A DNA stretch of 64,000 nt from Symbiodinium natans (Eukaryota > Sar > Dinophyceae > Suessiales > Symbiodiniaceae). The notes under the pieces were generated by a model. It saw nothing but the letters and a program-made list of their open reading frames with translations. It did not search any database and had not been told where the DNA came from. Below, piece after piece: positions 32,801-53,123 of the stretch. Where the stretch lies: NCBI GenBank assembly GCA_905221605.1, contig CAJNDS010000038.1, positions 154,526 to 218,525 on the forward strand, in the 5' to 3' direction. Each line of letters opens with the position of its first letter. Positions within the stretch are counted from its first letter, which is position 1. Made by a program: the position numbers and the translations under genes.

Positions 32801-35800
32801 AACTGGTGCTACAAGTCCAAGAACATCACACAACATTGCGGAGATATAGTAAACACAATATGCCGTAATACAGTAGTACAATGATTTATTGCTGCGGTCA
32901 TTTGCTCTGCAAGGTCCGTTGCGTGGGTCTTGCTCTTTCTCCTCATCGTCACGTACATCTTCGTTGCTCGGCATGCCGGATGCGCTGATGAGTACTGCAA
33001 AAGTTAAGCTACTTGTTATTGTTGTTTGCACCATAGCCTTAGCTGTCACGGAGTCATCGCTTGTGCTTCGAGGCTATCGTGTTCACCAGTCAGCTCGGCA
33101 CTCCGAACTACCAAAGACCACCAGAGCTCATAGACGCCGAGGATCCACTTGACGCGTGCTTACGCGGCTCTTGACCACAACTGCTTGAGATGAAAAAGGG
33201 GAAATGCATCCGCATCCCAAGGCCCCGGAGCTTTTCAGCGACATGCCTTCAAGCATGATGTCGCTCTTCACGCATGGGATTCTGGGTGCCTTGGTGAAAA
33301 GTGCGCAGCTGCTGTCGCAGAGTCGAGCGTCGAAGTTGCTGAAGAAGGATCTGATGTTTCTAGTGCACAGGTGACAACTTGCACTTTTTCCTGATCACTT
33401 TGCAGGAGGACAGAGCATGTGGCATGGTCCATCTACCGTGTGAGACTCCTTGCATTCTGTGTAGGAGAGCGTGCTGTTGATGTGGCTGGGCATCGTCTTC
33501 CTGGTGCTGCCCCTTGTCTCAGCCAGAGCCCACTATAAGGTCACGGCCCACTACAAGGTCACGAAGCTCCAACTGTTCCAGTGTCGGTCAATGTATGATG
33601 AAATGGTATGTAACATACTGTGATACAACGAGATCATAATATACTAGTATACTGGAACAACATATTATGAATAGCGTCATAAGATCATCTTAGTAAACGA
33701 GAATATTGCAATAATTCTATCAACATAGGAATGCGCTCTGAAGCCTCGAGGTGTGGCATCAGCTTGCTCAACATGCTTATTGGAATTCTTTGCCAGGTCC
33801 GGGCCCCCAAATCTTCCGCAGCTCAATCATCAGACAGACTCGCTTGCTTCTCGCAGGTAATTGCAGATAGAGCCTTGCCTGCAATGGATGAAAAGAATCA
33901 CAACACGTAGTCCAAAAAATCATATACGCATGCATTTATGTTTACAAATCTTGATGTATAAAGCAGTTGTGTGACGCTTCCTGCACTTTTATGGAAGAAC
34001 TTACTAGTATGGCTTTTCCAGTGTCATGCAAAGCCAGGTTCCAAGGAGGAGGAGAAAGCGCAAGAGCAAGCCGATCTGGAGAGACTTCTAAAGGAACTCT
34101 TCGAGGCATCAGAGCGCTTTCATGAGTATCCTTAGTCGAGTGACTATAGTGACTATAGTGATACACCAATATTATACACACTCACTAGTGGTTACGCACT
34201 TATATTTGCACTTGTATGGTCTCTAGGCAAGAGTGGCAGGGCTTCGGGCCTCTTGCAGCAATGCACGGCCGTGCACGCATCGTGCCCTCAGCACCCACTT
34301 GGAAGGGATAATCGCAGGATCCATTGGGTTGAGCCTTGTACCAACGACACGGTGGCAACGCAGACCTAAGTACTGTCGGTTGTTGAAGCGCCTCTCGGCC
34401 CATGGTTCACCGCACTTTTGAGTAGATTACACATAGGTGGTTGTGAAACCGCCTCGGTCTGCAAATGCGGGCCTGTGACGGAGGCCGCCGACCGGAACGG
34501 AGATGGATCGATCTCGGAACAGGACCTGGGAACCGGGCGCCTGGTGCGATGCTAGGATTCCAGGATATTCCAGGCATCTAGGTATCTAGGCATCTGTGAC
34601 AGTTGCATTCGGGTAATCCGAGGTCGAGGTCTCGTTCACTAATCAGATTGCGAAGGTCTCCTTCTTGAGGCTAAGGATTGCAATTGTGCAGTTCATATTA
34701 TTTGAGACTTCTATAGGTGCAACAGACACGGGAGGTAATGCGACCGCCACTGACCTTGTTCTTGAGGGTCTTCCCAATCAAGATGAACTTGTTTAATTGG
34801 AGTCGACAGGTGCTTTCCGTTTTGACTTTGGTTTCACAATAAGGCAAATACATGCTGCAATATGCTAGAGATAGTCTAGATTTACGGAGATTACGAGATT
34901 AGACGAGACCATGACAGCAAAAGCCCCACGGGTACCTGTTCTAAGGGGCCCTATATCAGTCTCGAAGTTCGCGGACGATGTGCAGGAATGGTCACGGGTG
35001 GCATCAAGTAAGCGCTGCCAGCAGCTGATGAAGAGGCACGTCGGCATGAGGGAACCGATCTCCTGAACTCAGGGGGCTGTGACACTCGTTTCCAAGGTAG
35101 AGCTGTATATTTTGTTTTTCTCGTTTGGTCCCAGACAACCACTCGGTGGACGTGTGGTGATGTGCATGGCTGTGAAGGGCTAGCGGCTAGTCCAGCTGCC
35201 TCTGGTCAGGCTCGAGTTGGACGAGCGCAAGCCCGTGGCCGAGCGCCTGTCGGAGCTCCAGTCGACCATCTTTGGAGGTTGGGGGAGCCACGCGGGCATT
35301 TGGGGCGAAGGGGGGTGGGGGGGCGGGGGGCGAATAGGGTTTAATGCTTTTGCCATGCTTTGTTTCTTTTGTGCCGTTGGTTCCTGCCTGGTTGCCGCGC
35401 TTGCCGGATGACGACGTCCACGACAGCAGGCAGGAACAATAACAACAAGATCGTGTTCCTGTACCAGATCACGTGCTTTTCTTGCCTGTAGAAAGCACTG
35501 ACAGGCTTGCTTTTTCGCAGCAGGGTTTCGCATGGGTTTTAGCACCATGGACGTGCAAAGTCAGGGTCTGGAGATCACAAAGCCAAGAGCTTCTGAAATG
35601 GCGATGTTCTGGGGCCATGATTATTTGGAAATGTTATGTGCGTTGGCTTTTGTCAAGGCTGCGTTGTTTGTTGGTTTTGTGTGTGTTTGTGGGGGGGAAG
35701 AAAAAGGAGCCGCTGTACATGCAGTGAATGCCACAAGATGCTTGGCATGGCAAGAAAAGAGATGCCTCGCAGCAGTGAATATTCACAGGCACGGATATTG

Positions 35801-38800
35801 TAAGCAGGGGAGACTCTGGATGCCGCAACCCCAAACATACCACAGCCACAGCTACAACCACAACAACCACATCAGCATCATCATCACCAGCACCACCACA
35901 GCAATCATCATTATGAAGGCCAGGGACCAGCCAACCAAGAGGCACAGGACGGAACCCCTGTCCAAATCGTTAATACACCTACCAGTAACTATGCCTCACG
36001 TAGCGTTTGCAGCTCTCTGCTGATTGGGCTTCGGATTTATGAGGGCTGTTGAGATGACAGGTTTCATGGCGCGGGCTAGCACATGCCACTGAAGTAGCAT
36101 GACGCAGCGCCTCGCGGAGGCGTGGCGGATGATGAGGATGAGGATGCCCAGGCACCTGCACTGCAATCGAAGAAGCGGTCGGGACAGCCGCTGGTGTTTG
36201 ACCAGGTCGAGGAAAGGGAAGCAAAGAAGATCTACCTCGACTTCGACCAGTTTCAAAGCCAGGCGTGGAGAGAGCTGAGATAGTACAGGGGCCTAAGCGG
36301 CCCAGGGGGCCCCCAGTGGCCCAGGCACGCCTAGGAATTCTCTTCTGGAATTCCGCCAGGTGCTGGACTTGCGGAAAGATGCTGAGATCGGCCATTTCGA
36401 CCTTCAAAGGCTTGAAATCAAGGTACAGCAAAAGGAGCCAGCGGGAGATGTATAAGGGTGCTTTTTGTGATTTAGAAGCCGCTTCTTTGTTCCGCTTGTT
36501 TTGTTTTTTTTATGTTTCTCCGTCTTTTGCGCTGGACGTCTCCTTGCCAGGACCGCACGCTGAGCTCGCAGCTGGCAGATCTTCAAGCTGATCTTTGCCA
36601 ACTCTTGGGTGGCGATCTTCGAAGTTCTCCACTCCCTCCAGGACAGCTGGAAAGTTAGCACAAGCAGAGACCTGAAGAGTTCGTCCATGCTTGACATGCT
36701 CCTGTAGAATTGCTGTAGAATCTGAGGCGTCGGTTTAAGTACCTTACCTAGCACCTGTGCAGAGAAGAACATCCAAGTTGATGAGCCCAATTTCCAACGA
36801 ATCGTGTGATGTTGTGGTGCCAGGAAAAGGCCCCATGCCAGGGCAGCTCATGGTTGAGGAGTTCGATCAAGAGCATGAGCTGAAGGTGCACGCTTTGAAA
36901 ATCTTAGAGATGCTGAAAACAGCCAGTGTGGTAAGAGAACTCGTTGGACAAGGCGCCGCCTCTTCCACAGAGACCGAGCACACCAGCCATGCCTGTCGGA
37001 ATGCCATGGTCCTGGGCTCCATGCCACTTGCAGACGACTTGACCTGTGTTGCGCACAATCGATTTCGATGAGAGACTAGGCAGCCGGTGCTTCCGGGTCA
37101 ACTGGAAGATGTGGAGGATTGACACCCAGAGCAGCCAGCCAGAAAGTGCAGTCGCAGGATGTTAAGAGGCATAGGATGATACACGGTGACAGGAGCATCG
37201 GGCACGGCCACAAGATGAATCTCCAACCGGTGCAGCCAGGCGTGACTGGCTGCGCGAGGTGGGACGGGCACTGGGGGGCACACTTCTCTTAGATGCTCTC
37301 TCGGAGATGCTCTTGGACTATCTTTTACTCTTGTGCAGAGGTGCCGACTGAGATTCTCCTCGACGTGTTGCAATCACGAGCCCAGGAGCCCAATGCAAGA
37401 ATAGAGCAAAGTGTGAGAAGAACTGGGGAACTGGGGGTCAAATTCTTGTGCTGGCGTGGGTTCGCTGAGGCCAATACCTGGAAGCTCTAGCGTTACTTGA
37501 GCGAGTCGAATCGCTGCGGCCACTGAATCCTTCGGAGATCTTCGAAGGACATGCTTTCATGATGGCCAGAATAATGCAGGCCTAAAAAAGGTAACTGCAA
37601 TATTCTGCAATTCTTGAACTTTGTTCGGCCCCCCAATGGAGTTTCTGAGCTCCGGACGTGGGGCAGCTCTCGAATGAGGAGCACTTGCAGTATAGAATCA
37701 GAAGAAGGGCACTGCGTAAAACGCACCCTTCCGATGGTAAGCAGGCTCCGATGTGAAAAAAAAACCAGGCATGAAACGAAGCGGTAATTGGCTGGGATGG
37801 GCTTTTGGATTGCTAGAGCTGCTAGAGTCTGCTAGAGCCAGATGGCCACCGCATATCTGAAGGTAAGTATCACAGATGAGGTGCGAGTGGAGGAGGAGGA
37901 CACGGACGAGCTTGCTCTGTACAAGATGATGCGTGAAGCCTGCCCCTGAGACGATCGCCTGATAAACTTGCCATTTTATAGGTGCTACGTGCCCACAGGC
38001 TTTGATCTATCTGACCCACCTGGACTCCAGCCACATGGTGCCTTGCCTTTAGATCTTGCGATGGAAGCTCATGGAATCACGAACTTGGAAAGCTGCAAAT
38101 TGCGAGTGAGGAACGCATTGTGCTGCAGCGGGTGGAGCAGGCTCTGGCAAAAATTTCTGCATGTGTTTAGGCATGCCTCCCAAGAAGCACAAAGAGTGCC
38201 TAGCACTGTTTCCCCCCCCCCCCCCCCCCCTTGATTCAAGTACTGCACATTACACATCCTGGTCCTGAGCCTGAGCAATGCATGCCAGGAATGCTTGGAG
38301 AGGAAGGACCTGGAAAAGTGGTCCCCTTTGATGTTAAACCGCCTGTGCTATGCCATCGGGTCTATCAGCGGTGCCATGCAGGCATGGGGACACTGCTGTG
38401 CTCCAGATCGACTTCTCTTTAAGGGGCATCACCAACCACCTGCCTTCAGGAACCGGACGAGAGGAAGTTCGTGGTCGCGGCCGCTCGACTGAGTTGCAAG
38501 TCTGCGTAGGGGGGGAAGCACCGTTGTCTTCAGGTGATCAAGGACCTCTTGAACCTTTGTGACATGAAGAAGGGGAAGGCGAGCCATCAAAAGGCAGAAT
38601 GTCAGCGCAGAGCAGCTTGCAACGCTTCTCCGCAGGACAACAAAGCAGCAGTGGCCAGCAACATCATGCACCCCTTGCTTGCCCGTGTTCTCTTGCACCG
38701 ATTTTTTTGCCGTAGCTTTGCAGCAATTGGGTGGCTCAGGTACGTGGTGGGTCAGTATCCTCGATTCCTGAGGGCCCACTGGAAGTTTCTGAGGACTGCG

Positions 38801-41800
38801 CCTTGCTCGCAGCTTGCCATTCCCGAACACAGCATCAAAGCCCTCTCAACTCAGTAGCGCCGATCCCGCAACCCTTCTCTTGCCTTCCCGTTAATTAAGA
38901 GGCTTATAAGTTGTCAGTTGTTGCATATGATGTTAATGTTTAGGAAATCATGTTGCATGGAGAATACTGCAAGGTGGTCTTCAAGCTCTTCGAGTTCATG
39001 CACGAAACCTTTCCGGGGGTCCAGACATTTGGTCGCAAAATCTCACGCAAGAAAGTGTTTGCTTCCATTGCCGGCCCCTTTTGCCCACTCACACCGCCCG
39101 CATGAGGCAGATGGCAGTTGACACCTTCCTTCGGATATGCCAGAAGTGCAAGAAGAAGTTCATCGTGCAGCAGGCTGGCTTTGGGAGCCCCTAGGTGCTT
39201 AGGCCAGTACACAGATCAGAATGGGCAGTGTCCTCCGCGTGCTGTGCAACAGAGCAACGAGCCTGCGCCCTTCATCGAGACAATGCCAAGCCACATTGCG
39301 CAGGCGGGTGTGCTTAAGGTGCGTTTTCTTTCAGGAGACCAAAACATGTGCTCTGCAGGACATCTCGGAACTGGAGCCGTTGCAAATCTGCGCTTTGGTC
39401 ACATGGATCGGGAAGGTGAAGAGGGATTGAGGGATTGCCTGGACCATTGACCTGCTGTAAGGCACTTTCTTTGAGGCGGTCGGACACATGATAAGCGCCG
39501 CCTCGTCGGACCAGAAGGCCAGCGGATGCCAGCAGATGCCAGGAGGTGCCTAGCGGAGACTTTCCGACATGGGGCTGCGTAGGTGCGCTTGATCGCCCTC
39601 CTCATGGGCCCGCTCCCGAACATCCCGAAGTCGATGAGCCTTTCGAAGCCTTTGGAGGGGCAGTGCACCAAAGCCGAGGAATCTTCAACGAGAAGTGGGC
39701 CTCCATTTTGAGAGGACCGGGCTCTAACTGGGTTTCGGGCGCGTCTGAGGGGTCCAAGTCCAGGACTCTCAGCTACAGGGTCTTTGGAAGTCTTCGTGCA
39801 GAACCAGCAGGCATGGCTGCGTGCGAATCTGCGAGATCTTTGTTCTTGCCTGTCCTCCTGGTCCATGGTTGCACAAAGAGCTCGAAGGTCTTGAGGGAAA
39901 TCTCGCTGATTCTGCGCGTGAATGAGCGCATGGTCATCGCCATTGGCACGGCCTGCCACGCACAGCTTGCAGGCCCCCTTAGACCTACACCTGCAGAGAC
40001 TTCTGCCAGAGACTTGAACTTGGACAGGTATGTACTGCGATATGTTGAAGATCTACAAGGTCCACTCTTTTGTTTGAGGATGCGCATCATAGCACAACTC
40101 TTGCGTGGAGGTCTGCAGCGACTTCATCTCCCACAGTACGGCGCAGCAGGGTGCACAAGTCATGCACCTGGCAAATGCCCGGAACCTTGGGGGCCGCGAG
40201 ACATCACTTCGCTGCATCATGCTGCATCACCTGCCCGAACAGAGGTGAAGCTGCTGCGGAATGTCAAGCGCTCCGCGGCTGCCAAAGTCATGAGTTTCTA
40301 AGGATGGGAAGCTTCGAGGAAACGCGAAATCTTCCGAAGAGAGGGAAGTGGGGGGTGGCGGGGGGGGGGGGGGGGGGGCGTGAATGAACGTCCCTTTGAA
40401 GCAGAGCCGAGTCCTAAGTGATCAGAGCCTCAAAAACAAGTCCAAAGCTTGTTTTTACAATGCAAGCTTTTCTCTGCCAGAGGGTAGGCAGTAAGGGGAT
40501 CAGCTGGGAGGCGACACCCTGCGGCTGGTCCGATCCTTTGTGGACGCGGCCACACCGCAGGGCGCCGCGGAGGTGCGGCTGACTCCGGCGCAGCGCGCAG
40601 CCCAGAAAGGAAGCAACACGAGATACTGGATTTAAAAAAAATATGTGTGTGTAGATGTATCGATACATACTAGTAGAATTACAAGTCTGCGATGCTGCAT
40701 GTAGTATGCTCTCCGCTGGATGGAGCCATGGATTGCACTTATGTGTTAATGCTTGTTTCGGACTACGTGTGTATGAGTGGAAGATGCTCAGAAAGGTGGA
40801 GGTTTGGTGCTTGGGCTGATGGGGAAGTGGCGGCTCATGTGGACCGGGTGTTGTTGGTGCCCATAACCCACGCCTTCCAGGCGTTCACCGAGCTGAGTTT
40901 GGGGGATTCATTGTTGCGGTTTCTGCTGGGTCGGACTGTTGCGGGTGAGCAGTCGGACCAACTTCTTTCGAGTCGGGTCGTGGTTCCTGAGGCGGTTACA
41001 CGATCATACACCCCGGTGACTCCTTCCTCTTTCGTTTCCTGAGGTTCCGTTGGCTCGATTGATTCCTGAAGGGATGCGTCGCTGCACCCGATCGCAATCT
41101 TGCGGAGAGCATCATAGCATCATAGCTGGCACCTTAGGCTGTGTAGCTCTCCGCCCGTTCGTCCTCTTGTTGTCCTTGTTTTTTTTTTTTTTCTCTCTCT
41201 CGCTCTCTCCTTTTTGGCGGGCCGGGTTGGCTGTTGGCTTCTATTACCCACGGCAGGGGCCGGGGGGGGGGGGGGGTTGAGGTAGTGACGAGTCGGGGAG
41301 CATACATGGGGCTTTTGATGCGCCTCCCTCTTGATCCGTTTCGCCATCGCGGCTTCATATGGCTTCATTCCTGAGCCTCCTTGGTTGTCGGAGAACGGAG
41401 GGTCCAGGGTGGACTCGGTTGTGGACTGCTTAAGGTTCAACTTGCTGATTGGGCCATGTGAGCAGGGTCGCGTGGGCTACGGGCAGCTAAAGCAAACATC
41501 CGTTGACTGCCTGGCTGACTGGCTGACCGACTGCACTGTCGAGTATACACTTTTATAAAATACAGAATCTAAGGCATTATCGACGGTACAGAAGAGGAGA
41601 CAGAGAACTTAAGAAACGACTGGAGAACCCGAGAGACGAGCATCCTTAAAGACCTCATCTCGTTCACCGAGGATCGCGCAGCGCTTCGTCCCGCCATTGC
41701 TGGAGCACTCGCCAGTTGTGCAGACATGCAGACAGCAGTCGCAAAGCAAATTCCCTGCAACATGCCATCACGTCTGCAGGAGCCGGTTTTAGCAGACTAC

Positions 41801-44800
41801 CGCAGTAACATGCCCCAGGCAGCTGGTGAAGCTTGAAGCTGTAGTGCAACAGAGACTATGCAGAACATTTCATGAAAACATCTCAAGAAGCAGGCGCGGG
41901 ATGCAGAAGTCTTAGCGACTTGGCTGACAATTCCTTTGTAGCGAATTCTGAGAGTGCCTGGAAGGCGACCCAAGCGAAGCTTCTGAATTCCAACTCTTCC
42001 CACATGCCCGAATGTCTGCTTAGGACTTGCTTGCTGTCCTGGCGACCAGGATACATGAGTCTTGGCATGGCAATGATCGGGCACGAAAATGGGTCGTACT
42101 GGCTCGTACCTCTCTTCAGCTTCCCTTTTGTTTGCTGAGGAATCCATTTCGCAGGAAGCCATGGGCCCCGAGTGTCATGAGCGCAATGCCATTGCTTCAC
42201 GCTGCCTGGGACATGTGGCTACGCCCCAAGCAATCCTGAGGTGGGGAGGATATTCGAGATGGTGCTGGAGTGCACGTATGCGACCCAGCATGCAAGCCAA
42301 CAAGCCGACAATGGCTGACAAGGCTGTGCCAGAAGGCCAGACGCGTGTATTCCTTTGGTGCGGTACTACGAAGTCCGTGGAGCCAAATGCAACTATTTTG
42401 GCCTTAGGGGAACCAATCAGGAACAGATCGTGCATCGAGGGCCCCGAGAACCCAAAGTCCGAAACTCTTCCCGTAGCCATTTTGGCTCAAGACAGCTATA
42501 CAATCAATAAACGTTGGGTCGGATTGTCTTTGCAGCGCTCTTCTGCTCTAATGGTGGTTCCGTTCTGCACCCCCTCGACGCAATACGGCACAGATGCCGA
42601 GTTGCGTTCGTTGCCGACGCCCATGCCGCCGCAGTCACAGCAACAATGTGTACTTGCCATGCTTGTGCCGGCGGGCCAGTTCCCCTACGCCGCAACGCAG
42701 CCGTCCATGATGTGCCAGACAGAGAAGTTCGGACCGCACGTGGCGCTTCAACCTCCTGTTCCGCCGGAGATCCTGCACCCGAACATGCAGCTGACCCCAG
42801 TCCTGAAGCCTGTGCACGCTCCCGGCGTCGGCAGCAGCACCTGCAGTGAGGATGAACACGGCGCAGCCCAGAGGGAGCTGCCTTCGCCGCCCGACACCGC
42901 CTCCGAGGCTGATCGCGCTGAGGGCCTGGCCAAGCTCAGCACCAGCGCCGCCCGCCGGCTCCGCCGGAAGCGCGCCTCGCAGAGGGCGCTGGCGAGCCCG
43001 GCACCGAAACCCTGGGCCAGCAACGGTCCAGTTGCAGTTGGGCGTGTCTGGAATCCATTGACGGAAATCTTTGACTCTGCTGCATACGAAGATCTGCAGC
43101 AGCAACTGCAAGGAAGCCCCGAGCAGGTCTCCTCGGCCTTAACGTTGTTGAAGGACCATTGTGTAGACCATGTTTGGGACCTCTCTTGCCATCCCCTGGG
43201 CTGCCGCCTGATTCAGCTGGCGCTTGAGCGTGCCACTCCTCGTGAGGCTGCCGAGCTGGCGAGGGAACTGCGAGGCCACATTCGCGAGGCGTTGATGTCG
43301 CCGCATGCCAACTACGTGGTACAAAAAGTCGTAACTCAATTGACATGGAACAGCTGCAGCTTCGTGGCAGATGAACTGGAGGGCTTTGCATCGAAGTTTG
43401 CTCGCCACCGATTTGGATGCCGTATTTTCTGCCGCTTGCTTGAGTTCTACGCATCGCAAGACGGCACCCTGCGGTTGGTGGACGAGGTACTTCAGGAAGC
43501 AGAGGATTTGTGCTGTCATCCGTTCGGTCACCACGTTGCCCAGTCCGTACTGGAGCATGGTACCGACTGCCACCGCGATGCCGTGGCAAAGACGATTTGC
43601 TCGAATCCCATGGGCTTCGCTCAGAATCAGAATGCAAGCTACCTCGTGGAGAAGGTCCTGTCTTTCTGCTCGCCGCACTACCAGCGCTCCCTGCTCGCCG
43701 AGTTGACGGAATCTTTGGAAGAATTGGCTCTGTCAAGGTACGGCTGCTATGTCGTCCGGGTCCTGGTGGAACACCCAGATACAGATCGATCCGCGGCAGT
43801 GTCTCGGCTGTGGAGCTGCATCGGCGAGCTCAGGAGAACGAAGCATGGACAGCACCTGATGACCGATCTGGGCATGAGCATGAATCGCGGCCGACGATGA
43901 GCTCAGATGTCATGTTGCTGTTCCATCCAAGACTGTACATAGACAACGTTGGTGGCGGATCCTTGCAATCCCAAAGCCTGCCCTCCCAATTTCTTGTCGT
44001 GGCGGTTACATTACCCCTAAAGAGCTCCAACCTCCGACTTTGTGGGCACTTGGCCCACCTTTTGCCCGGGATCAGCCTCATCCTTCCAGCTGCCAGTTGG
44101 AACACTTGCTTTGCTCCTATGAAGGCTGTATGTAAATATAGCCCAAAGACCAAAGATCCTAAATCCCAGGTGGCAGCAGTCCAGTGTGGCATTGCCCACG
44201 CCCACATATTCCTCAGCCTGCTGACACGCAGCAGTGCTCCCTGCATGCCGCCATCGCCCCACGCGGAAGGGCTGTTACGGTTGGACCAGCCCTTCGTTGC
44301 AAAGCCGTTGAGCGATTTCAATTGAGTCTTTCGCCCCTGGCACAAAGCCATGGCAGGTTTTCGGGTCTAATGGCAAGGAAGCTGCATGCAGCTTCCTGGC
44401 CCCTGTCGCAGTTGTGAAGGAGACATGGGGCTGGCTTCCCGCCTCTCGAGCACTCGCTACGAGCCCGTGAAGAGCTCGCGGTGCAGGGGGCTTCCCAGTC
44501 AATGCCAACCAGGGAGTTTGTCAAAGGGAACGGGGTCATTTTGTAAGGTGAGGTGTCATCATTGTCGGTACATTTCTTCGGGCCTTTTTCAAAGGGCCTT
44601 TTCAGAGGTACCACCGTTAGCCCCTGACAAATCCCACAGAAACTATTGTCCCCTCGCTTGTACAGCCAACTGTGGCCCGACCTCCACTTCTCACGTCTTC
44701 GACGGAGAGAAAGCCTTCTGTCGCGTGAGGTAGCTTATTGCTTGAACGCAATATATTGTATGTGTTCTTAATGTCGAATAGGTACGCTGACCTCTGAACA

Positions 44801-46598
44801 GGTAAGACCTGAATTAAGGTGTGACATGATCAAGGGCGACTTCCAAAGTTACCCGGACCACAGGACATCTCTGGGTTGCCGCACTGAAGCGCGTTGTGAA
44901 CAGGGTGTCCACTTCTCACCTTCGGCCCTTGTGCTTGTAGCTCTGAGCTAGTTAGCGCCGGGAGGGTGAAGTTCTACGACTTGCTCAAGGCAATCAATGC
45001 AAATTGCTTCCAGGCCCGGCCTCGCCTTGAAAGAGTTTGGTGCCGTGACGGCAGATGAATGGCAGGCCCTGTTCTATTTGCCAGAGGCCCAACTGATTCT
45101 CTTCGTGGCACGCGCCTCAAACCTCCGGGCAGATGGAACAGCTATAATCACATTGGCAAGCTTGGCCCAGGACTCGTTGATTTGGGCCATGAAGCATGAG
45201 CAGCCACAAGTGGCCGACAGCGGCCTGCAGGTTGAACCGCCTTAACAAGAGCCCTAAACGCCCCACATCCAAGAACCCCGATGGTCTGCAACTGTCCAGC
45301 TGCCAGGTGCTCTCACAGTTTCTGGAGCGCCTTCTGAGTGGCCCAAGTAGTATTTATGCCTTGCGGCCCGGTGTTTGAAAGAACTTTCCACAAGGCGTCG
45401 CTAGAAGCGTCGCAAGAAGCGTCGCTTGTCGCCGAGCTTCAGGTTCCTTTCTTCAAACAGTACTACTTCCTCATCCTTCAAGCCGTCCGGGAGCCTCATC
45501 AGTGAGTGTGTCTCGTCCAACTTGGCGATAGCTGAACAGGTCATTGGTGTTCTTACAGACACCTCCCACAAGAGTGGCTTCAAGCTGCAGCAGCACATTC
45601 TGCTGCTCCTGGGCTCTTGAAGAGAGGGAGGATTTTCTTAAAAAACCCAGCTGCTTCCACGTCTCGGCTGAACCATTGCAAGGCAACTCATCGTTGCCGC
45701 TGAGAACCAAATGCTCAGCGACGCAGCGCCAAAGCAGCGCGTGATGGAGCTGCACGGCTGCATCATTTGCATTTCCTGAGCTCGAGCTTGGAAGAAGAGG
45801 CTCCGAAATTCAAATGGCTCAGCAGCCAGGTTCCTTTTCGAGCTAATTGGCAAGCTGGGGCCCAAGCCGGGAGATTTGGGATCCGGAAGTTGAGTGGGCT
45901 CCACCACGCTACTTGAGGTCATTCCCAACTCTGAACAAGAGCCAGGTGCATTGCAAGCTACAGGGCAATACAGATACTACAGGCCTGATCACTGTATAGA
46001 AATCCCAAATTGTGGAGAGGCTGAGATTTTTGTGCTCCACTGCTTCAACAAGTCGCGGCAGCCTGCCGAGCCCGGGCCCTCATATTTTGGATCAAAAACT
46101 GAGAAGTGTCGACTCTTCGAGTCAGCTTGGGCTATGTCTCACAGCGCATGAAACCCGCGGTATTCAATCTCAGTCTTGCGCCTTGGTTCTTGGTTCTTCG
46201 GGGTTTTTGATTCCTTTTGTGTTGGGTGGATCTTGGAGGTTCCAGCAGCACATACGCGACTTCCTCATCCAGCTCAAGGAGAGTTGTTGTTGCTCCCGCA
46301 CCTCCTGTATGACCCCTTTTGCGACACTGCGAGCAGATGCCCGTGAAAAGTGTGCACAGTGTACATCGGCCTTCGGAATTCAGAAAGCGCCCTTTTTCCT
46401 CCTGTTACAATTGTGAGGAGTGGGGGAGCCACGAGTCGGCCTTGTACGAGGAGCTGCTCTGTTCGTGAATTCCTCTGCTCACGCAGAAGCTGGGACCAGG
46501 GCGGTGCATGTGTGGAGGCTGAAAGAAAGTCAGCACAAGACGAGCAGCAGCAGCTGGAGCGACAATGGAGGATGCAGGCCTTGCCAAGCTGGACCTAG
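26842..46598 (+). CDS. XPO1: Exportin-1 (CRM1/XPO1), many small exons over about 20 kb
   Basis: Nuclear export receptor for leucine-rich export signals, working with RanGTP. More than 25 collinear exon fragments match CRM1 from end to end. Examples: [13 protein letters not shown] (27088), [11 protein letters not shown] (27340), [16 protein letters not shown] (27695), [20 protein letters not shown] (about 28700), [13 protein letters not shown] (about 29879), [14 protein letters not shown] (30640-30681), [11 protein letters not shown] (30811-30843), [19 protein letters not shown] (37881-37937), [10 protein letters not shown] (37999), [13 protein letters not shown] (about 38343), [19 protein letters not shown] (38740-38797), [10 protein letters not shown] (about 40041), ARDAEVLA (41894), [13 protein letters not shown] (about 44825), [20 protein letters not shown] (45171-45230), [18 protein letters not shown] (45541), [14 protein letters not shown] (about 46242), stop at 46596-46598. 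Donors are GC, GT and GA with AG|G acceptors. A few short segments were not located. Two other genes sit in its introns. The exact N-terminus is unknown. Confidence 0.93.
31660..36660 (+). CDS. Voltage-gated cation channel with EF-hand, nested in an XPO1 intron
   Basis: One S1-S6 ion-transport unit, in order. S1 [20 protein letters not shown] (about 31682). S2 [10 protein letters not shown] joined to [11 protein letters not shown] (31930 and 32034). S3 [16 protein letters not shown] (about 32263). S4 [12 protein letters not shown] (about 32412) continuing in [19 protein letters not shown] (about 32596). S5 [18 protein letters not shown] (about 32918). Pore loop [20 protein letters not shown] (about 33215). 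S6 [12 protein letters not shown] and [12 protein letters not shown] (33475, 33757). A cytosolic helix [20 protein letters not shown] follows (about 34047), then an EF-hand loop [12 protein letters not shown] (34489-34524) that fits all Ca2+-ligand positions. Later exons give a His/Gln-rich stretch (about 35815-35990), an acidic exon (about 36113-36290) and coiled-coil pieces [19 protein letters not shown] and [15 protein letters not shown]. It is probably a calcium-sensitive Na+/Ca2+-type channel; ion selectivity cannot be read. More C-terminal exons may extend to 37.4 kb. It lies wholly inside the exportin-1 intron 30844-37880, same strand. Confidence 0.82.
35309..35332 (+). repeat. G-rich homopolymer tract
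   Basis: GGGGTGGGGGGGCGGGGGG, in an intron of the nested channel gene. Confidence 0.8.
38213..38231 (-). repeat. C homopolymer (about 19 nt)
   Basis: An unbroken C run in an exportin-1 intron, the only long internal C run on the + strand away from the window start. Confidence 0.9.
40357..40378 (+). repeat. G homopolymer
   Basis: A G run of about 18-20 nt in an exportin-1 intron. A similar run lies at about 41261-41276 just after a CT-rich tract. Confidence 0.9.
42470..42491 (+). other. DinoSL spliced-leader relic in genomic DNA
   Basis: The stretch begins CCGTAGCCAT at 42471 and ends TTTGGCTCAAG at 42491. It is identical to bases 2-22 of the 22-nt dinoflagellate spliced leader; the variable first base is C here. 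It is followed by ACAGC, not by a GT donor, so it is not an SL RNA gene. It sits 59 nt upstream of the ATG of the intronless PUF gene. In a genomic locus this marks a reverse-transcribed, trans-spliced mRNA. Confidence 0.93.
42551..43900 (+). CDS. Pumilio/PUF RNA-binding protein, intronless retrogene
   Basis: Post-transcriptional regulator that binds 3' UTRs of mRNAs through a curved PUF array. The frame from ATG 42551 to TGA 43898-43900 encodes 449 aa without introns. Residues 1-170 are low complexity, Pro/Gln/Ala-rich, with a basic stretch [11 protein letters not shown]. Seven PUF repeats are visible at a regular spacing of about 36 aa: [13 protein letters not shown] (about 211), [10 protein letters not shown] (250), [13 protein letters not shown] (287), [15 protein letters not shown] (323), [10 protein letters not shown] (359), [13 protein letters not shown] (395) and KHGQHLM (430). 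I chose the ATG at 42551 because it is the first in-frame ATG after the spliced-leader relic; the open frame continues upstream by chance. Absence of introns contrasts sharply with the host exportin-1 gene. No poly(A) tract remains visible downstream. The intact reading frame suggests a functional retrocopy. Confidence 0.9.
   Translation: MVVPFCTPSTQYGTDAELRSLPTPMPPQSQQQCVLAMLVPAGQFPYAATQPSMMCQTEKFGPHVALQPPVPPEILHPNMQLTPVLKPVHAPGVGSSTCSEDEHGAAQRELPSPPDTASEADRAEGLAKLSTSAARRLRRKRASQRALASPAPKPWASNGPVAVGRVWNPLTEIFDSAAYEDLQQQLQGSPEQVSSALTLLKDHCVDHVWDLSCHPLGCRLIQLALERATPREAAELARELRGHIREALMSPHANYVVQKVVTQLTWNSCSFVADELEGFASKFARHRFGCRIFCRLLEFYASQDGTLRLVDEVLQEAEDLCCHPFGHHVAQSVLEHGTDCHRDAVAKTICSNPMGFAQNQNASYLVEKVLSFCSPHYQRSLLAELTESLEELALSRYGCYVVRVLVEHPDTDRSAAVSRLWSCIGELRRTKHGQHLMTDLGMSMNRGRR
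43901..44820. other. 3' flank of the PUF retrogene within the XPO1 intron
   Basis: The retrogene's 3' UTR should lie here. The frame overlapping 43510-44325 is a shadow of the PUF gene plus downstream sequence. One exportin-1 exon of about 25 residues, expected between ARDAEVLA and [13 protein letters not shown], was not found. Confidence 0.4.
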
Positions 46599-47002
46599 AC
46601 GAAGATGTAGCAGATTGCTTGAATTTGCTTGAACAATGTCCGTGGCTGGTCCAGCTTCAGAACTTCAGAACTGTGCGAAATCCTGCCCATGTGTGCTGAC
46701 CGGTGTTGCTGTGATCTTTGAACCTCTGGCGCAGCAGCCTCAAAAGCGGAAAGCACGGCTAAAGTCCCATTTCGGACCCATTTCGAATATACCTTTGGAG
46801 CCTAGAGATTTGCAGGCCGGGTCTGCCGTTGAGGCATGTCATAAGTTTAGTGGTTGCGCTTCCCAGAGTTAGCGCGTCTGGCAATTCAATGCCATGTTCG
46901 ATCCAAATTTTCGGAAGGCCCAGTTTTTGCATGTTTTGATTGTTTTTGAGAGCCATTTGGTTCGAACTTTGGGGGGATCGGCATCAACTCACCGTCAGGG
47001 TC

Positions 47003-48199
47003 ATGAAGCTCTTGCTGTGGATTGCAGCAGCGTGGTTATCTCTCTCCGCGGCAACCTCTGATGAATGCGAAGGCTCTGAGGATGACAGCTGGGTGGCCTT
47101 CAGCTTGAAACAGCGGAAACACCTGAAGCATCATAATGCCGGCCCTGTCGGGCAAAGTGCAACGTGGTCTTCCTTTTCAGATGTGGCAACAAAGATGACG
47201 CAGCTGCCATGGAAAGATATCACATGGGGTCCGCTTGACAAGTACGGGAAGCCTGAGAACAACTTTGCTTTGGGTGGTTGCATTGTCAATGGCCTCCTAT
47301 ACACGATGGCCTTTGCTGACAGTGGTGGACAGAATTGGGAGGACTATGTCCAAGGCATCGGAACTGTTGTGGGTGGACTTGTTGGTTTGGTGCCCGGCGC
47401 TGGCCCCATCCTCAGCATGGTAGTCACCTTCGCCATGTCCCTCTTCCACGATGACTCCGAGTCAGCCTTGACCAGCCTGTACAAGCAGATCATGAGCGAG
47501 GTGCGAGCGATTGTGCGGGCTCAAGAGGTTCAGGATGCAGTGGCTGCAGCCAAGGGGCAGTTGGCCGGCTTCATGCAGATGCTGGCTGGTATGCCTCTGG
47601 ACTTCTTGGTGGACGACAAGACCTCGCAAGTTGAGAAATACCAGCATTGGTACAGAGTACTGGAAAGGTACATCAACATCATGGACGCGTCAGAATACAA
47701 CATTTTCGGGAATGAAGCAAATTGTACCCTCGCACTTGCCGTTCCTATGCAACCAAATGACTTGCCAAGCCCAGATTGCTTGGAATTTTGGAAATCTGGC
47801 GCCATCTTCTTTCAGTTTCAATACGTTCTGATGCATCTCAACATCATGGCCCAGATGGCTGTTTTCGCCACGTTTGAAACTCAAAGAACCACCGTGCTCT
47901 CAGCCCTGCGAGGGAAAGCTGCGACGTATCACAAGCTACTGAACGCCTCTTACCAAGGCTTCGTCCAGGGCATAGATCCACCAATGAAGTGCATCTGGGA
48001 GAACGGTATAGATAAGAGTAGTGGTAAGCCCATTTGGGTCTTGAAGTACACCAAGTGGGACAACGAAGACGTGTCCTGTGTGACTGGTTGTGTGGCCTCG
48101 TTTCCCTTCAAGTTCCCACAACCGCAGCGTCTGTGCCTCGCACCCGATCCACATTTCCCCAATGCCTGCAGGCAGGCTGACTTCTACTCGATGTATTAG
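47003..48199 (+). CDS. Secreted protein, intronless, ends at an in-frame TAG
   Basis: ATG at 47003 starts a clear signal peptide (MKLLLWIAAAWLSLSAATS, cleavage probably after SAA or ATS). The frame runs 398 codons to TAG at 48197-48199. Around residues 115-200 there is a Gly/hydrophobic helix (VVGGLVGLVPGAGPILSMVV) followed by amphipathic helices. This helical bundle is reminiscent of the N-terminal domain of delta-endotoxin-like pore formers, but the resemblance is weak and I would not name the family. Cysteines cluster at the C-terminal part (CVTGC, CLAPDP, ACRQ). Reading continues in the same frame after the TAG for 157 further codons with similar composition, so the gene is probably interrupted. 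No intron is needed anywhere in 1.2 kb, unlike its neighbours. Coding status is likely; function is unknown. Confidence 0.65.
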   Translation: MKLLLWIAAAWLSLSAATSDECEGSEDDSWVAFSLKQRKHLKHHNAGPVGQSATWSSFSDVATKMTQLPWKDITWGPLDKYGKPENNFALGGCIVNGLLYTMAFADSGGQNWEDYVQGIGTVVGGLVGLVPGAGPILSMVVTFAMSLFHDDSESALTSLYKQIMSEVRAIVRAQEVQDAVAAAKGQLAGFMQMLAGMPLDFLVDDKTSQVEKYQHWYRVLERYINIMDASEYNIFGNEANCTLALAVPMQPNDLPSPDCLEFWKSGAIFFQFQYVLMHLNIMAQMAVFATFETQRTTVLSALRGKAATYHKLLNASYQGFVQGIDPPMKCIWENGIDKSSGKPIWVLKYTKWDNEDVSCVTGCVASFPFKFPQPQRLCLAPDPHFPNACRQADFYSMY

Positions 48200-48670
48200 A
48201 TCAAGGTTGGCGAGGCCAAGGCAACCTATGAACCCATGCTGGCAAAGCTCCTGAACCTCTCTCTCTCCTCCTATTCTGATGAGGCCAAGGGGATGGTTGA
48301 TTGGATCCTGAATGATCCTCCACCGCCAAACAAGACCATCCCCCGCAGCGTGCTTGAGTTCTGCGAGAAGGTTGTCGATGCTCTCGCTGACAAAGCGGTC
48401 CAAACAGTACCCGACAACGCAAAAAACATCAAGGAGAGTCTCAATGGGGCCTGCCCTGCAGCTTTGAATGTTGCTTCCGCAACACCCACTCGGTGCTCTT
48501 GCAAAACCAACAAGCTTTGTTCTGGGCTGAGCAACACGTTCATTCAAATCCTACCATCTATCCCTGCAGGTCGCTTGTGGGTGTCACTTCTGGGCCCAGG
48601 CAGCTATTTTATGGAGCACTGCAACTCAAGGTGCGATGATCTCCCCATGAGTACTTTGCCAGAACCCTAG
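48200..48670 (+). pseudogene. In-frame continuation after the TAG of the secreted-protein gene
   Basis: The same reading frame stays open from 48200 to the TAG at 48668-48670 and looks coding: amphipathic helices, a PPPPNK linker and paired cysteines (RCSCKTNKLC). This fits the C-terminal part of the gene starting at 47003 after a nonsense mutation. Alternatives are stop-codon readthrough, a sequencing error or a second short gene. I treat the whole 47003-48670 unit as a gene broken once. Confidence 0.55.
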
Positions 48671-51400
48671 CAGAAGCCTAGGAGTTCCATAAATGTTGGC
48701 GAAAACATGACCAACTGCGCGAGTTCGGACCGGGAGAAACATGTCACAAGGTGATTTTAGTAATTGTGAGCATGTTGAGTTTTTTTTCGCTTTGAGGGTC
48801 AAGAATCTCTGTCTGGTTGAAACCCGAGCGCTCTTCAGATTCGGGTGCTGCGCAGCATGCCATGGAGCATCTCCGGGCATGGCTGAAGGTGGTCCTACAG
48901 GCACATCTCAGTTCTGCCGTGCCTTCGTTCACTCAAATTTTGGGGCAGGTGAGGCAAATGCAACCCGAGCATGCTCAGTGCCCGCTGGTGAGGGGAAGTG
49001 CTTCCAGCCTGCTCATGCTTCCGATGGCAACATGATGCTTTTGAGGTACTTCCTCACTTATCTGGCGCAAGGCATCGGTCGAGTCGGCAAGGACTACTTG
49101 AAGAGCTCCTTTTGGCTGAACAACAAACGGGGGGGGGAAAGCTAGAAGATGTGAAAAGGGCGTATACTGGGCCGGCGCACATTCAGCTTTTTCAGGGGGC
49201 TTGGACGTGCGAAGGTTCAGCTGCGCAGCTCCTCAGCATGCGCGAACTCCAGCTCTTCAGCAACCTGCTGCCAGAGTTCGGCCGGATCCTGAGCTCACCC
49301 GAAGCCGCCCGACTCGGGAGGGCCTCTCACACAGCTGATGGATCCTTTAGGAAGCCTCCCCTGGGCGCTGAAGCCCGTGATTGTGAGACCCGGCAGCACT
49401 TATCGAACGATACAGCGCAAGCTTCGTGTTCCCTCGTGCACCACTTCCTGCGGCTTCGTCGCATTTCTCGGAGGTTGCTCATCGAGCGGACCGTGCCAGC
49501 GACGCGGCAGTTGGCGCTGCTTGGGCAGCGCAGAGAGAGCTGTTTGGACATGTCCAGAAACTTCACCGGAGTTTTTTGTGTCCCCTGCCCCAGGCTTGTA
49601 ACAGCCGTGGCCGTCACGGCCATGCCGTGGTTCTTCCTAAGCGTGTACCCACCGATGCCAATGATGCTGCTGCTCGCAACCGGTCTCGCATCTCTGGGCT
49701 CGGCGGCCCCTCGGACGACAGCTTCACGTCAGACCTTCGCGACCTTTTTTTGGCCGTCTCTGATCTCCTAGACCCCTGGCAATCACGTGCAATCATTTAA
49801 GAACATACTGACATTTTGCACTGTTCTGTATGCCTTGTCCTCAGCCTGGCTCTCCTTGAGGTGGTGGATGGTCTCACCGACGGAAGGCTGGCTGCTGAAT
49901 CGACAGAGGCATCTGCTGCTGCTCTGCAGCGCCTCGCTTCGACCCCTCCCCAATTTTATGGGACATCATGTAATGCTTCGCAAAATACCATGAAAACAGC
50001 CTCAATATTCAATCTCAATATTCAGACATTATCTTTATTAAACAATAAAGTGTAGCATAGTAACGCAGCATGGAACATCAAGGTACTTGTTTTATGTCTG
50101 ATGCTTTTCTCAGATTGCAGTTATGTGAATCGCCATGTGCTTACCACGACGTTTGCTTTTGTGTGCTCAGCACCTTCCCTTTGTGTCTGTCCGCGTCGTC
50201 CATAAGGTCTCTGTGCCAGACGGGGTACAGCATCGGTGCCACCCGGCCTTAAGGGAACCCGGAAAATAGACCCTGGAGGCCCTAGAGCCTAGAGCCTAAA
50301 AATTAAGGCGACTTTGCAGTCAGGCCAGGCGGGTAGCATAGAACAAACCTAAGGCTTTTCTCGTCGGCTTCGCAGCTTGGGCCCTGGAGCTGCCGCCACT
50401 CGGCACTGACGTTGCGGGGGAATGCCCATTGGGGACATTGGGGAGATACTTGGGGGCACCCTTTCGCGTGCCAGGACCCAGCTTTCCCTGATGGTCACCG
50501 CCGCGGCCTGGGCATCGATTCTCGTTGCGCTTCGGCCGACTCGCTCCTCGGACACGCAAGGCCCCCGCAAGGCGCCCGCAAGGCGTAAGCAAAGGCTGGC
50601 CGAAAGGCGAAGAAATTTTGCAGTAACTTTGCTGCAGGTTTGTGCTCGCACCGCTCTCAGAAGTAGGGTTGGGTGAGACCTAAGGCTCCTGTGCTGAGTG
50701 AAGGGCTAAATCTCGAAAACTCAAGGCTCGCAGCAGGAGCCGGGCGCGGACGCTGGCTGGCGACCATTTGCTTGGAGAGAGCTGGCCAAGCCCAACATAT
50801 TGTGTGTGGCTGTCTTGGGCTTCGCCGTTTGCTTGGCTCCAGCTGCTGCAGGGGCCTTGGAAAGTTGAAGACCGGCAGAGGTTAGCATCTGCTGTGGGTG
50901 ATGTCTGTGCTTTGTGGATGTCAGTGGGTGCTTGCATCAGGACACCTTCCTTTATCGCCAGTTTGTGCTGGGCTTGAAAAGCTCTCAGCAGCCATTGGTA
51001 TCCATCGCTGGGACAGTCCCGAGTCTGAGATCTTCACCCCATGCCACACTGAAGCTGCAAGAGGCCGCCGAGAGCGGGCCTTGCATGTGCTAGAGTTGTG
51101 CCAGGTTGGGTGGTTCCTGGGCACCTTCACATACCGGGAGAAGATAGCTTTCGGCCGCACTGCAACAGGCAGCACTTTCCGGACGGAAGCGAAGAGGAAG
51201 AGAGAGAGGGAGCGAGAGCGAACCACTGAATGCTCCAAGAGCTCAGTGAGCTCAGAAGGTCCCTTCAATGATTCAACGGCAAAATCCAGAAGCCTGCTTT
51301 TGTCCTCGGTCGAGTCGGCTCAGGAGCCTTGCGCTTCTCCCTTCTGCTCTGGGCGCTGCCGCTCTTTGCGAAGGCACGCGTTCCCCTTTGAGGCAATCCG
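48671..51400. other. Sparse region, only weak exon candidates
   Basis: Weak + strand candidates are 48870-48960 (HLRAWLKVVLQAHLSSAVPS), 49045-49125, 49240-49320 (ELQLFSNLLPEFGRILSS) and 49680-49797. Frames at 50310-50680 are overlapping and ambiguous. A GAGAGA tract lies at about 51199-51215. No family recognised. Confidence 0.3.
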
Positions 51401-51419
51401 CTTTGAACTTGAAATCAGT

Positions 51420-51902
51420 TCGTGTCCTGGAGTTTCGGGGAGTTGGCTGCTAAGACCTCGGCGTTGTCTAATGATACGGAAAGCCACCCACCCTGCCGAG
51501 ATAGTGAGGTGTTGCTACTGGCTGTGGATGAATCTCTGGCGCTTCCTGCGGCCTTGCTGGAGACTCCTGCACTCCCAATTGAGGCCAACTGTGACAAAAG
51601 TCTAGTTAGAGCGATACGAGATCCAATTATGAGCGGAATGTCTCGCCATCAACAAAAAGCTGATGTATCAGCCACTTGCTATGGTCCGATGGAATGGGGC
51701 TTCCAACAGAGCATGGCTTGTCGATGGATCTTACTTCTTGGTTTCGTGGACACACATCGTGGCTGTTTGTCGAAAGCTGATGATTCGGGTGGGGCGTGTT
51801 CGAGCTCGCAGCCTAGGAAATCTAAAACCTGGAGACTTCCAGTCAGATAAGTGCAGCCAAGGAACGCAGCGAGCGAGCAGCTTGCTCATGACTGATGTGT
51901 GA
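51420..51902 (+). CDS. Candidate exons, possible degenerate Hint-like segment
   Basis: One frame (about 51431-51640) reads SALSNDTESHPPCRDSEVLL then a Leu/Ala-rich helix. A second frame (51663-51902) has LVDGSYFLVSWTHIVAV and, 20 residues on, SLGNLKPGDFQ. The order 'DGS.F.VS..H.V..' then 'L.NLKPGD' resembles the middle of Hint (hedgehog/intein) domains. The canonical catalytic residues at the ends are not identifiable, so this is only a suggestion. Confidence 0.25.
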
Positions 51903-53123
51903 TTTGGTTTCTTTTCGTCACAAGGACTGAAGGGACGCAGGGTCAGCAGGCAGTCTGCAGCATGAGGTTTGGTAAGGCCCTGACGTTCATGCCGACCACG
52001 ATCCTGCAGCAGCTCCACGCGACAAAAGGCTGCGAGGGCACAGCATTCACTTTGATGCAGAGCCTCGGAAGATGCAGAGATTTCTCTTTCACGTCAGATA
52101 TTCGAGCAACATATCATTCGGGCAGAACAATGCACGCTGCTCTTTGTTCTGAGGAGTGGCGGCACCCTGGGCCACGCAGCTGCAAAAAATGGAGTCTGCA
52201 AGCAGTCGTTCCCCAGATTTCTGCTTCATCAGAAAAAGAGAGGACAGAGAGAACCCATTGAGTAGGCATGCCAGTTGCAAAATGCAGTAAACCGGAGTAC
52301 CGCAAGGCATGGTGCTGGGACGAAACCTCGAATGGCGGCTGCTACTGTGGTGTGGAATTGATGCCACCGAAGGCGCTGTTGGCTTCTCCCGGTTCCCGGT
52401 TGTTATCGCGCTGGCCGCCCTTTGGCGCATTCTGACTGCGGCTGCCATCATCTGGCTCCTGATGCCCCAGCTAACGCAGCCGACGGAGCAGCCGCGCAGG
52501 AAAGAGAAAAGGGACCCTCCTGCCCAGCAGCTGATGTAGGAGAAGATGTGGGACGATTGATGGCTTGGAGCAGGTACCCGGCCTGGTCCCGCAGTACGAC
52601 CCCGGGCGCGCGGACATGGACGATCTTTAGAGGCCAGTGCAGAGCAGAGTTCTCATCAAACCTGGTCAGCTAGGACCTGGTTAACGAAAAACATCGAAAT
52701 CTCTTAATCCATCAGAGCCTCTCCTCCTAAACAATCCGCTCGAGACGGCTGGGTGGACCAGGTGCCCTGTGGAGCCTCGCTGGCGCCTCGCTCTGAAATC
52801 TCTGAACCGCAAGGAGACGCAAGACACAAGCGAAGACCAGCGGCTGCCGCTGCGAGCGTGGAAAAGAGGTCTCAAGGCCCTGAGTAGATGAGTAGACGAG
52901 ACGGAAATGACAGGCCTGCGAGGTGTGCCCTCCACCAAGCAAACCGCGAAGTGCTGCAAGGACTTTCCTCGCCTAGCACATTTGATGGCCTAAGGAGATC
53001 TCCAAAGAGGGGTTTTCAGGGGTCGTGAGTAGAGAGCCGCATCTCTGCAGTGCAGTAGACAAGGTGGGAAATGGGGAAGCTGCACATGCGGCTTCAGCAG
53101 CCCGCCTGCTCCTATTTTAATCA
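51903..53123. other. Unassigned sequence
   Basis: Overlapping frames on both strands without recognisable motifs. Confidence 0.35.

Follow-up and report, generated by a model that had tools for sequence, protein, structure and literature searches.

A DinoSL-tagged, intronless PUF gene in an exportin-1 intron of Symbiodinium natans: a very likely retrocopy of a multi-exon parent

Intron-less gene copies that carry a relict of the dinoflagellate spliced leader (DinoSL; SL hereafter), an intact frame and an identifiable parent have been described as retrogenes (Slamovits and Keeling, 2008, and Song et al., 2017, as cited in PMC6050394; Haro et al., 2025, PMC12014239). Such SL-tagged copies are quoted at 22.3% and 23.2% of the genes in two genomes (Song et al., 2017, via PMC6050394), 6544 retrogenes are reported from transcriptomes (Haro et al., 2025, PMC12014239), and PMC8045281 gives 244 and 496 DinoSL sequences for two Symbiodinium genomes. 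Genes residing within introns of multi-exon genes are likewise on record, numbering 4898 and 3359 (8.4% and 6.5%) in two isolates of Polarella glacialis, according to PMC7245778. Both phenomena are already in print, and the locus described here is a well-documented further case: an intronless gene of the PUF (Pumilio) family, preceded by a relict DinoSL and contained in an intron of the exportin-1 gene, in a 64,000-nucleotide (nt) stretch of the Symbiodinium natans genome (contig CAJNDS010000038.1, positions 154,526 to 218,525; the window, G000:C38:154526-218525 in the 759-Mb genome that was searched). Compared with the DinoSL-relict retrogenes described so far, the PUF locus offers both ends of the insert, the host intron and the parent gene, all pinned in one assembly.

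The leader is represented by CCGTAGCCATTTTGGCTCAAG at 42471-42491 (+), an exact 21/21 nt match to positions 2-22 of the 22-nt DinoSL printed in PMC6050394; the base preceding the 21-mer at 42471 is C, where the full leader has D. No other DinoSL match with up to three mismatches occurs in the window, and none of 100 dinucleotide shuffles yielded one. As in SL-tagged retrogenes generally, the relict stands directly upstream of a coding frame: 59 nt separate it from the ATG at 42551, which opens 449 codons closed by a TGA at 43898-43900, uninterrupted by stops or frameshifts and matching the Pfam family PUF (PF00806, E=1.1e-26). The 21-base leader match and the intact intronless frame reported by the first-pass annotation of the window are thus both real.

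The intron-containing parent which that annotation had presupposed was located at G000:C2329:259249-280152 by a DNA search with window positions 42440-44300, as 21 collinear blocks of 85-100% nucleotide identity; a protein search of the genome returned, besides the window copy, nine short ordered matches at C2329:259323-279576. Twenty intervening stretches of the parent, one of them in the 3' untranslated region (UTR; 279607-279800), are missing from the window copy, so that blocks spaced by ~110 nt to just over 10 kb in the parent lie edge to edge, with a slight overlap or with almost no gap in the window. Among the 1604 bases of parent letters that were read (L107-L110), one intron was covered at both ends, GACCAT/GCTGCT...AATCCAG/GTTTGG (L108; slashes mark junctions); this GC-AG intron contains a degenerate TTTAGGG tract soon after its donor (L108, ~51-100). 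The DNA homology starts at 42479, within the leader, and stops at 44296, and the 108 parent letters past 280152 do not continue the match; on the parental side its 5' edge reads GGTGAAATTTTGGCTCAAG/CCAGCTG. Because the homology runs from within the SL to the end of the 3' UTR and the parent's intervening stretches are absent, the copy points to a spliced mRNA as its source, in line with the mRNA recycling by reverse transcription proposed at first pass. We consider it highly probable that the SL-tagged, spliced PUF mRNA of the C2329 gene was copied into the exportin-1 intron. The features of the locus are as follows.

24641..52627, +, host exportin-1 (CRM1) gene, from amino acid 14 to amino acid 1098 of P0103 by tblastn, with Pfam CRM1 domains
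42276..44818, +, exportin-1 intron holding the retrocopy, 2543 nt, donor AC/GTATGC, acceptor TTAAG/GTGTG (inferred splice sites)
42443..42470, +, degenerate CCCTAAA-like stretch adjoining the SL, 15/21 match, doubtful
42471..44296, +, whole retrocopy (SL, 5' UTR, PUF frame and 3' UTR), ~1826 nt, with DNA homology to the C2329 parent
42471..42491, +, relict DinoSL, 21/21 nt, an exact match with 205 copies in the genome
42492..42550, +, 5' UTR inherited from the parent mRNA, 48/55 aligned nt identical, one 4-nt gap
42551..43900, +, PUF (Pumilio-type) coding frame without introns, 449 codons and TGA, supported by Pfam, the human PUM1 match and a structural model
43160..43171, +, insertion of 12 nt that keeps the frame and adds DHCV to the protein, coinciding with a parental exon junction or no more than 6 nt away from it, its placement ambiguous owing to a GACCAT repeat
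43901..44296, +, 3' UTR of the retrocopy, without the parental intervening stretch 279607-279800

The host gene was delineated by tblastn with exportin-1 proteins (printed results for P0103 and P0104), which placed exons along the plus strand of the window, and Pfam scans of 35-50 kb in the three plus-strand frames gave an exportin match in one frame and none in the other two. We read the matches as one gene, not two; a 'second' exportin-1 in the window, as named at first pass, is not supported, given that tblastn with the dinoflagellate protein P0103 finds a single gene. The location of the PUF copy within an exportin-1 intron stands: the upstream exon ends at 42275 and the next starts at 44819 (GAGTGCAC/GTATGC ... 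TTAAG/GTGTGACATG, borders set by codon continuity), the frame continues across as E-C-T-C-D, and the insert lies on the same strand as the exons on both sides. The insert accounts for 1826 of the intron's 2543 nt, leaving an intron of ~717 nt without it, a dimension that can be set beside the nesting known from Polarella. A later intron of the same gene holds a second long intronless frame at 46940-48199 (419 amino acids between stop codons); MKLLLWIAAAWL occurs close to its beginning, it has no Pfam match, and no SL-like 12-mer with up to one mismatch was found nearby.

In sequence and in predicted fold, the product of the retrocopy conforms to the Pumilio homology domain (PUM-HD) of the PUF family, sharing repeat sequence and fold with human PUM1 (E=1.3e-35 by sequence). 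An AlphaFold2 model shows a helical domain at residues ~168-441, where confidence is high apart from a drop to 81 around residues 201-210, and an N-terminal portion of 130 residues of low confidence; the best Foldseek match of the model is human Pumilio-1 (E=1.7e-13). Whereas canonical PUF proteins have eight repeats, fewer are clear here: Pfam scores three singly and six to seven are counted by eye, and the model aligns over most of PUM1. A 2026 review (PMC12787238) came upon no work devoted to the domain architecture of dinoflagellate PUF proteins. Among the 99 relatives returned by the protein search (7996 candidates scored), all with a readable organism name are dinoflagellate except a weak fungal match, P0099, and the orthologue-like P0002 (450 amino acids) is 85% identical to the window product. 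A 607-codon upstream extension of the frame, open to 42077, was rejected as coding, because the GC bias by codon position seen in the PUF part does not extend into it. The DHCV insertion, just before the first PUF repeat, is absent from all ten other proteins of alignment A1; the window reads GACCATTGTGTAGACCATGTTTGG where the parent has GACCAT/GTTTGG across the exon junction, and the insertion may be left over from alternative splicing or have arisen by a small duplication.

Comparison of copy and parent suggests that the coding frame has been held under constraint. The 18 coding blocks (1105 nt) are on average ~4.7% diverged (block percentages averaged), and the only indels in the frame, of -3 and +12 nt, preserve it. 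The sampled UTR pieces, by contrast, are ~9-13% diverged and contain gaps of 4 and 1 nt that would break a frame: the 5' UTR has the single 4-nt gap besides 7/55 substitutions, the final part of the 3' UTR 15/145 substitutions and six gap positions, and the segment 43933-44037, counted by eye, nine differences over 101 aligned positions together with four gaps of 1 nt. Over the 56 codons with parent letters, pN/pS is 0.38, a value based on 14 changes in one eighth of the gene. The duplication is therefore old enough for ~9-13% divergence in these pieces, despite which the relict leader has been retained at its full 21 nt. It probably post-dates the split from the P0002 lineage, to judge from the C-terminus LGMSMN-GRR-stop, which is common to copy and parent and differs in P0002. 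Judged by frame and divergence, the copy has most likely kept its capacity to encode an RNA-binding protein of the Pumilio type, and we regard it as probably a functional retrogene.

A route to its origin and expression can be outlined from the sequence. A mature PUF mRNA from C2329:259249-280152, both trans-spliced to the leader and cis-spliced, would have been reverse transcribed, and the full-length cDNA inserted in sense into a short exportin-1 intron; all of this but the enzymology is reflected in the sequence. Lying in sense, the copy would be contained in the exportin-1 pre-mRNA or a read-through transcript and most likely needs no separate promoter; a capped PUF mRNA would be released by trans-splicing at the AG with which the relict leader ends (CAAG/ACAGC). 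This AG is the presumed leader-joining site of the parent, since the copy has one leader directly before the shared 5' UTR. Such trans-splicing of the host pre-mRNA could thus provide for expression of the retrocopy; the first-pass statement that the copy must have recruited expression from within the intron is not supported. PMC6050394 refers to another proposal, that the leader's TTT(G) serves as a promoter motif.

Several observations weigh against this account in whole or in part. Four stretches of 23-41 nt in the window have no aligned parent block; they may represent further small exons. The final 13 nt of the SL (ATTTTGGCTCAAG) are present in the parent itself at G000:C2329:259249-259261 (L109, 60-72), at its presumed trans-splice acceptor; the parent hence has an SL-related history of its own, being either an older recycled locus or a gene whose first exon underwent conversion by its cDNA. 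This remnant would suit the opposite history, with C2329 as an old retrogene that later acquired ~20 introns and is thus the derived locus, and the window copy as its recent intron-free relative. We deem this very unlikely: ~20 intron gains would be required, partial conversion of the first exon could account for the remnant equally well, and either way the window copy still stems from an mRNA of the C2329 locus. Processed retrogenes generated by mammalian LINE-1 (long interspersed element 1) are likewise intronless mRNA copies at a new place, but neither LINE-type hallmark, a 3' poly(A) tract or a target-site duplication of at least 7 nt, was seen in the PUF retrocopy. No poly(A) tract was seen at the 3' edge of homology at 44296, and the target-site duplications anticipated at first pass were not found among repeats of 7-20 nt in a scan of 43901-45150 against the stretch preceding the leader; with an observed score of zero, the comparison with controls is uninformative. 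We give hardly any weight to the view that a PUF gene already devoid of introns was copied by segmental DNA duplication, together with an SL stretch that is a dispersed repeat. Further PUF paralogues do occur in long open frames (C835:814843, C1896:355680, C1813:65663 and C1989:548835-562822, the last with five in tandem within 14 kb by protein search; possibly older retrocopies), and some SL copies belong to small repeat families. Yet the closest paralogue of the window copy is C2329, a multi-exon gene with up to 100% nucleotide identity per block, and the limits of homology are those of an mRNA, from the SL to the end of the 3' UTR with none upstream of the leader, by which this explanation is already refuted. 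The reading as a true retrocopy that is nevertheless a pseudogene, its frame surviving by chance as the insertion is recent, deserves more consideration and is unlikely rather than implausible. In its favour, the 56 of the 449 codons for which parent letters are available show eight non-synonymous and six synonymous changes; six amino-acid changes fall within the 34 codons of the N-terminal segment, and the 12-nt insertion is unique within alignment A1. In addition, a dead copy opposite a constrained parent could show coding divergence not far above 4.7%, which makes the intact frame the stronger argument for function. Against decay stand the UTR divergence and its several frame-breaking gaps, compared with none in 449 codons, and the structural model, whose confidence stays high over the PUF domain.

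The genomic setting of DinoSL relicts raises one more possibility, namely, that a tract of telomeric repeats within the intron received the PUF cDNA, as seems to have happened with many SL-tagged insertions in this genome. At first pass, an SL stretch dispersed upstream of many unrelated genes would have counted as evidence against recycling. The genome does hold 205 exact copies of the 21-mer (0 for the reversed control), but the criterion is ill-posed, for retroposition itself predicts dispersed SL copies. We examined 100 of the 205 sites (99 fetched and the PUF site, in listing order and not at random), of which 12 resemble SL-RNA genes, as judged by the leader being followed by GTACAAATCGG or GCACAAATCGG. 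DinoSL relicts adjoin telomeric repeats far more often than controls do, mostly CCCTAAA, on the leader side and in a preferred register: with a tract defined by at least 17/21 nt within 7 nt of the leader, 29 of the 88 sites not resembling SL-RNA genes qualify (24 CCCTAAA, 5 TTTAGGG), compared with 155/13426 (CCCTAAA) and 158/13426 (TTTAGGG) control positions in the same loci. Directly before the PUF leader, 15/21 nt match CCCTAAA, a value reached by 32/4875 controls in the same orientation but by 431/13426 control positions in tract-rich loci when either orientation is allowed, and falling between clear tracts (at least 18) and background; intermediate scores of 13-16 characterize a further 6/88 SL sites, PUF included, and 427/13426 controls. 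A once perfect tract that has decayed is disfavoured, because the leader beside it is intact (21/21) and the supposed tract is changed at 6/21. The telomere-like stretch at 44142-44166, a candidate 3' edge of the insert, was rejected, as it falls in the part of the 3' UTR with homology to the parent. Scored with gaps along the entire window, telomeric motifs proved unspecific: CCCTAAA gave 7 hits and TTTAGGG 12, compared with 12-15 for each of five control heptamers. Insertion into a telomeric tract at the PUF locus thus appears doubtful, and retroposition of the C2329 mRNA into the exportin-1 intron is the explanation that we retain.

Besides the SL-RNA-like genes, only four small families of two to three members share downstream sequence among the 100 sites, and the downstream sequences of the tract-adjoining sites fall in 24 (CCCTAAA) and 5 (TTTAGGG) different clusters. 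At 61 sites with longer flanks, a tract adjoins the leader in 19, 15 of which have a further downstream tract in the fetched flank, always in the same orientation (13 and 2); of the 42 others, 10 have a downstream tract, five per orientation. Such a tract need not mark a 3' edge, given that the PUF look-alike is parental 3' UTR. Genome-wide, 49 distinct places (from 62 matches, with none for the reversed control) have CCCTAAA within 10 nt ahead of the first 15 nt of the leader, and at 37 of these the telomeric phase runs into the leader's CC (before CCG: TAAAC 19, TAAA 14, TAAACC 4). Since searches with the open reading frames (ORFs) gave little, the telomere-adjoining inserts are not assignable as copies of known genes: the ORFs behind ten telomere-SL junctions contained one Pfam family above cut-off, a reverse transcriptase (L058), and a sub-threshold match in L050, the L045 ORF matched itself only, and the L038 insert body had no second copy among the matches listed. 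The reverse transcriptase (RVT_1) frame, SL-tagged and adjoining a CCCTAAA tract, is at L058 4321-4989 (-), and a second SL-tagged frame of this type, at L011 2739-3104 (-), is 76% identical to it over a stretch of 122 residues. GA-rich simple repeats precede the SL at 5/88 sites (L011, L046, L053, L079 and L089). At eight sites a second, truncated leader comes immediately after the first (CCATTTTGGCTCAAG in L021, L040, L048, L050, L055, L095 and L099, CCGTTTTGGCTCAAG in L088), which points to repeated recycling. The region G000:C479:102078-129887 contains six SL-RNA-like genes (leader then GTACAAATCGGGCCC), with four spacings of ~3.8 kb and one of 12.7 kb.

We tentatively suggest, without yet favouring the idea, that telomeric repeats are where a considerable fraction of the SL-tagged cDNAs of this dinoflagellate become joined to the genome, with the leader's CC in most cases continuing the telomeric CCC, by telomere-primed, telomere-targeted or telomerase-assisted retroposition; within such a scheme the PUF copy would be no more than a decayed example, or else a separate one. 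A full-text literature search, in which most candidates were judged from listings and some from passages, returned no paper on DinoSL/telomeric-repeat junctions. The junctions at the other SL sites bear on which machinery performs dinoflagellate retroposition, a question left open in PMC6050394, where the type of element behind it is given as unknown. The PUF locus, for its part, is an unusually complete retrogene record, in which a leader tag, both ends, a host intron and a 21-block parent are preserved in one assembly, and it can serve as a test case for the expression of a promoterless cDNA in a sense-strand intron of a trans-splicing organism.
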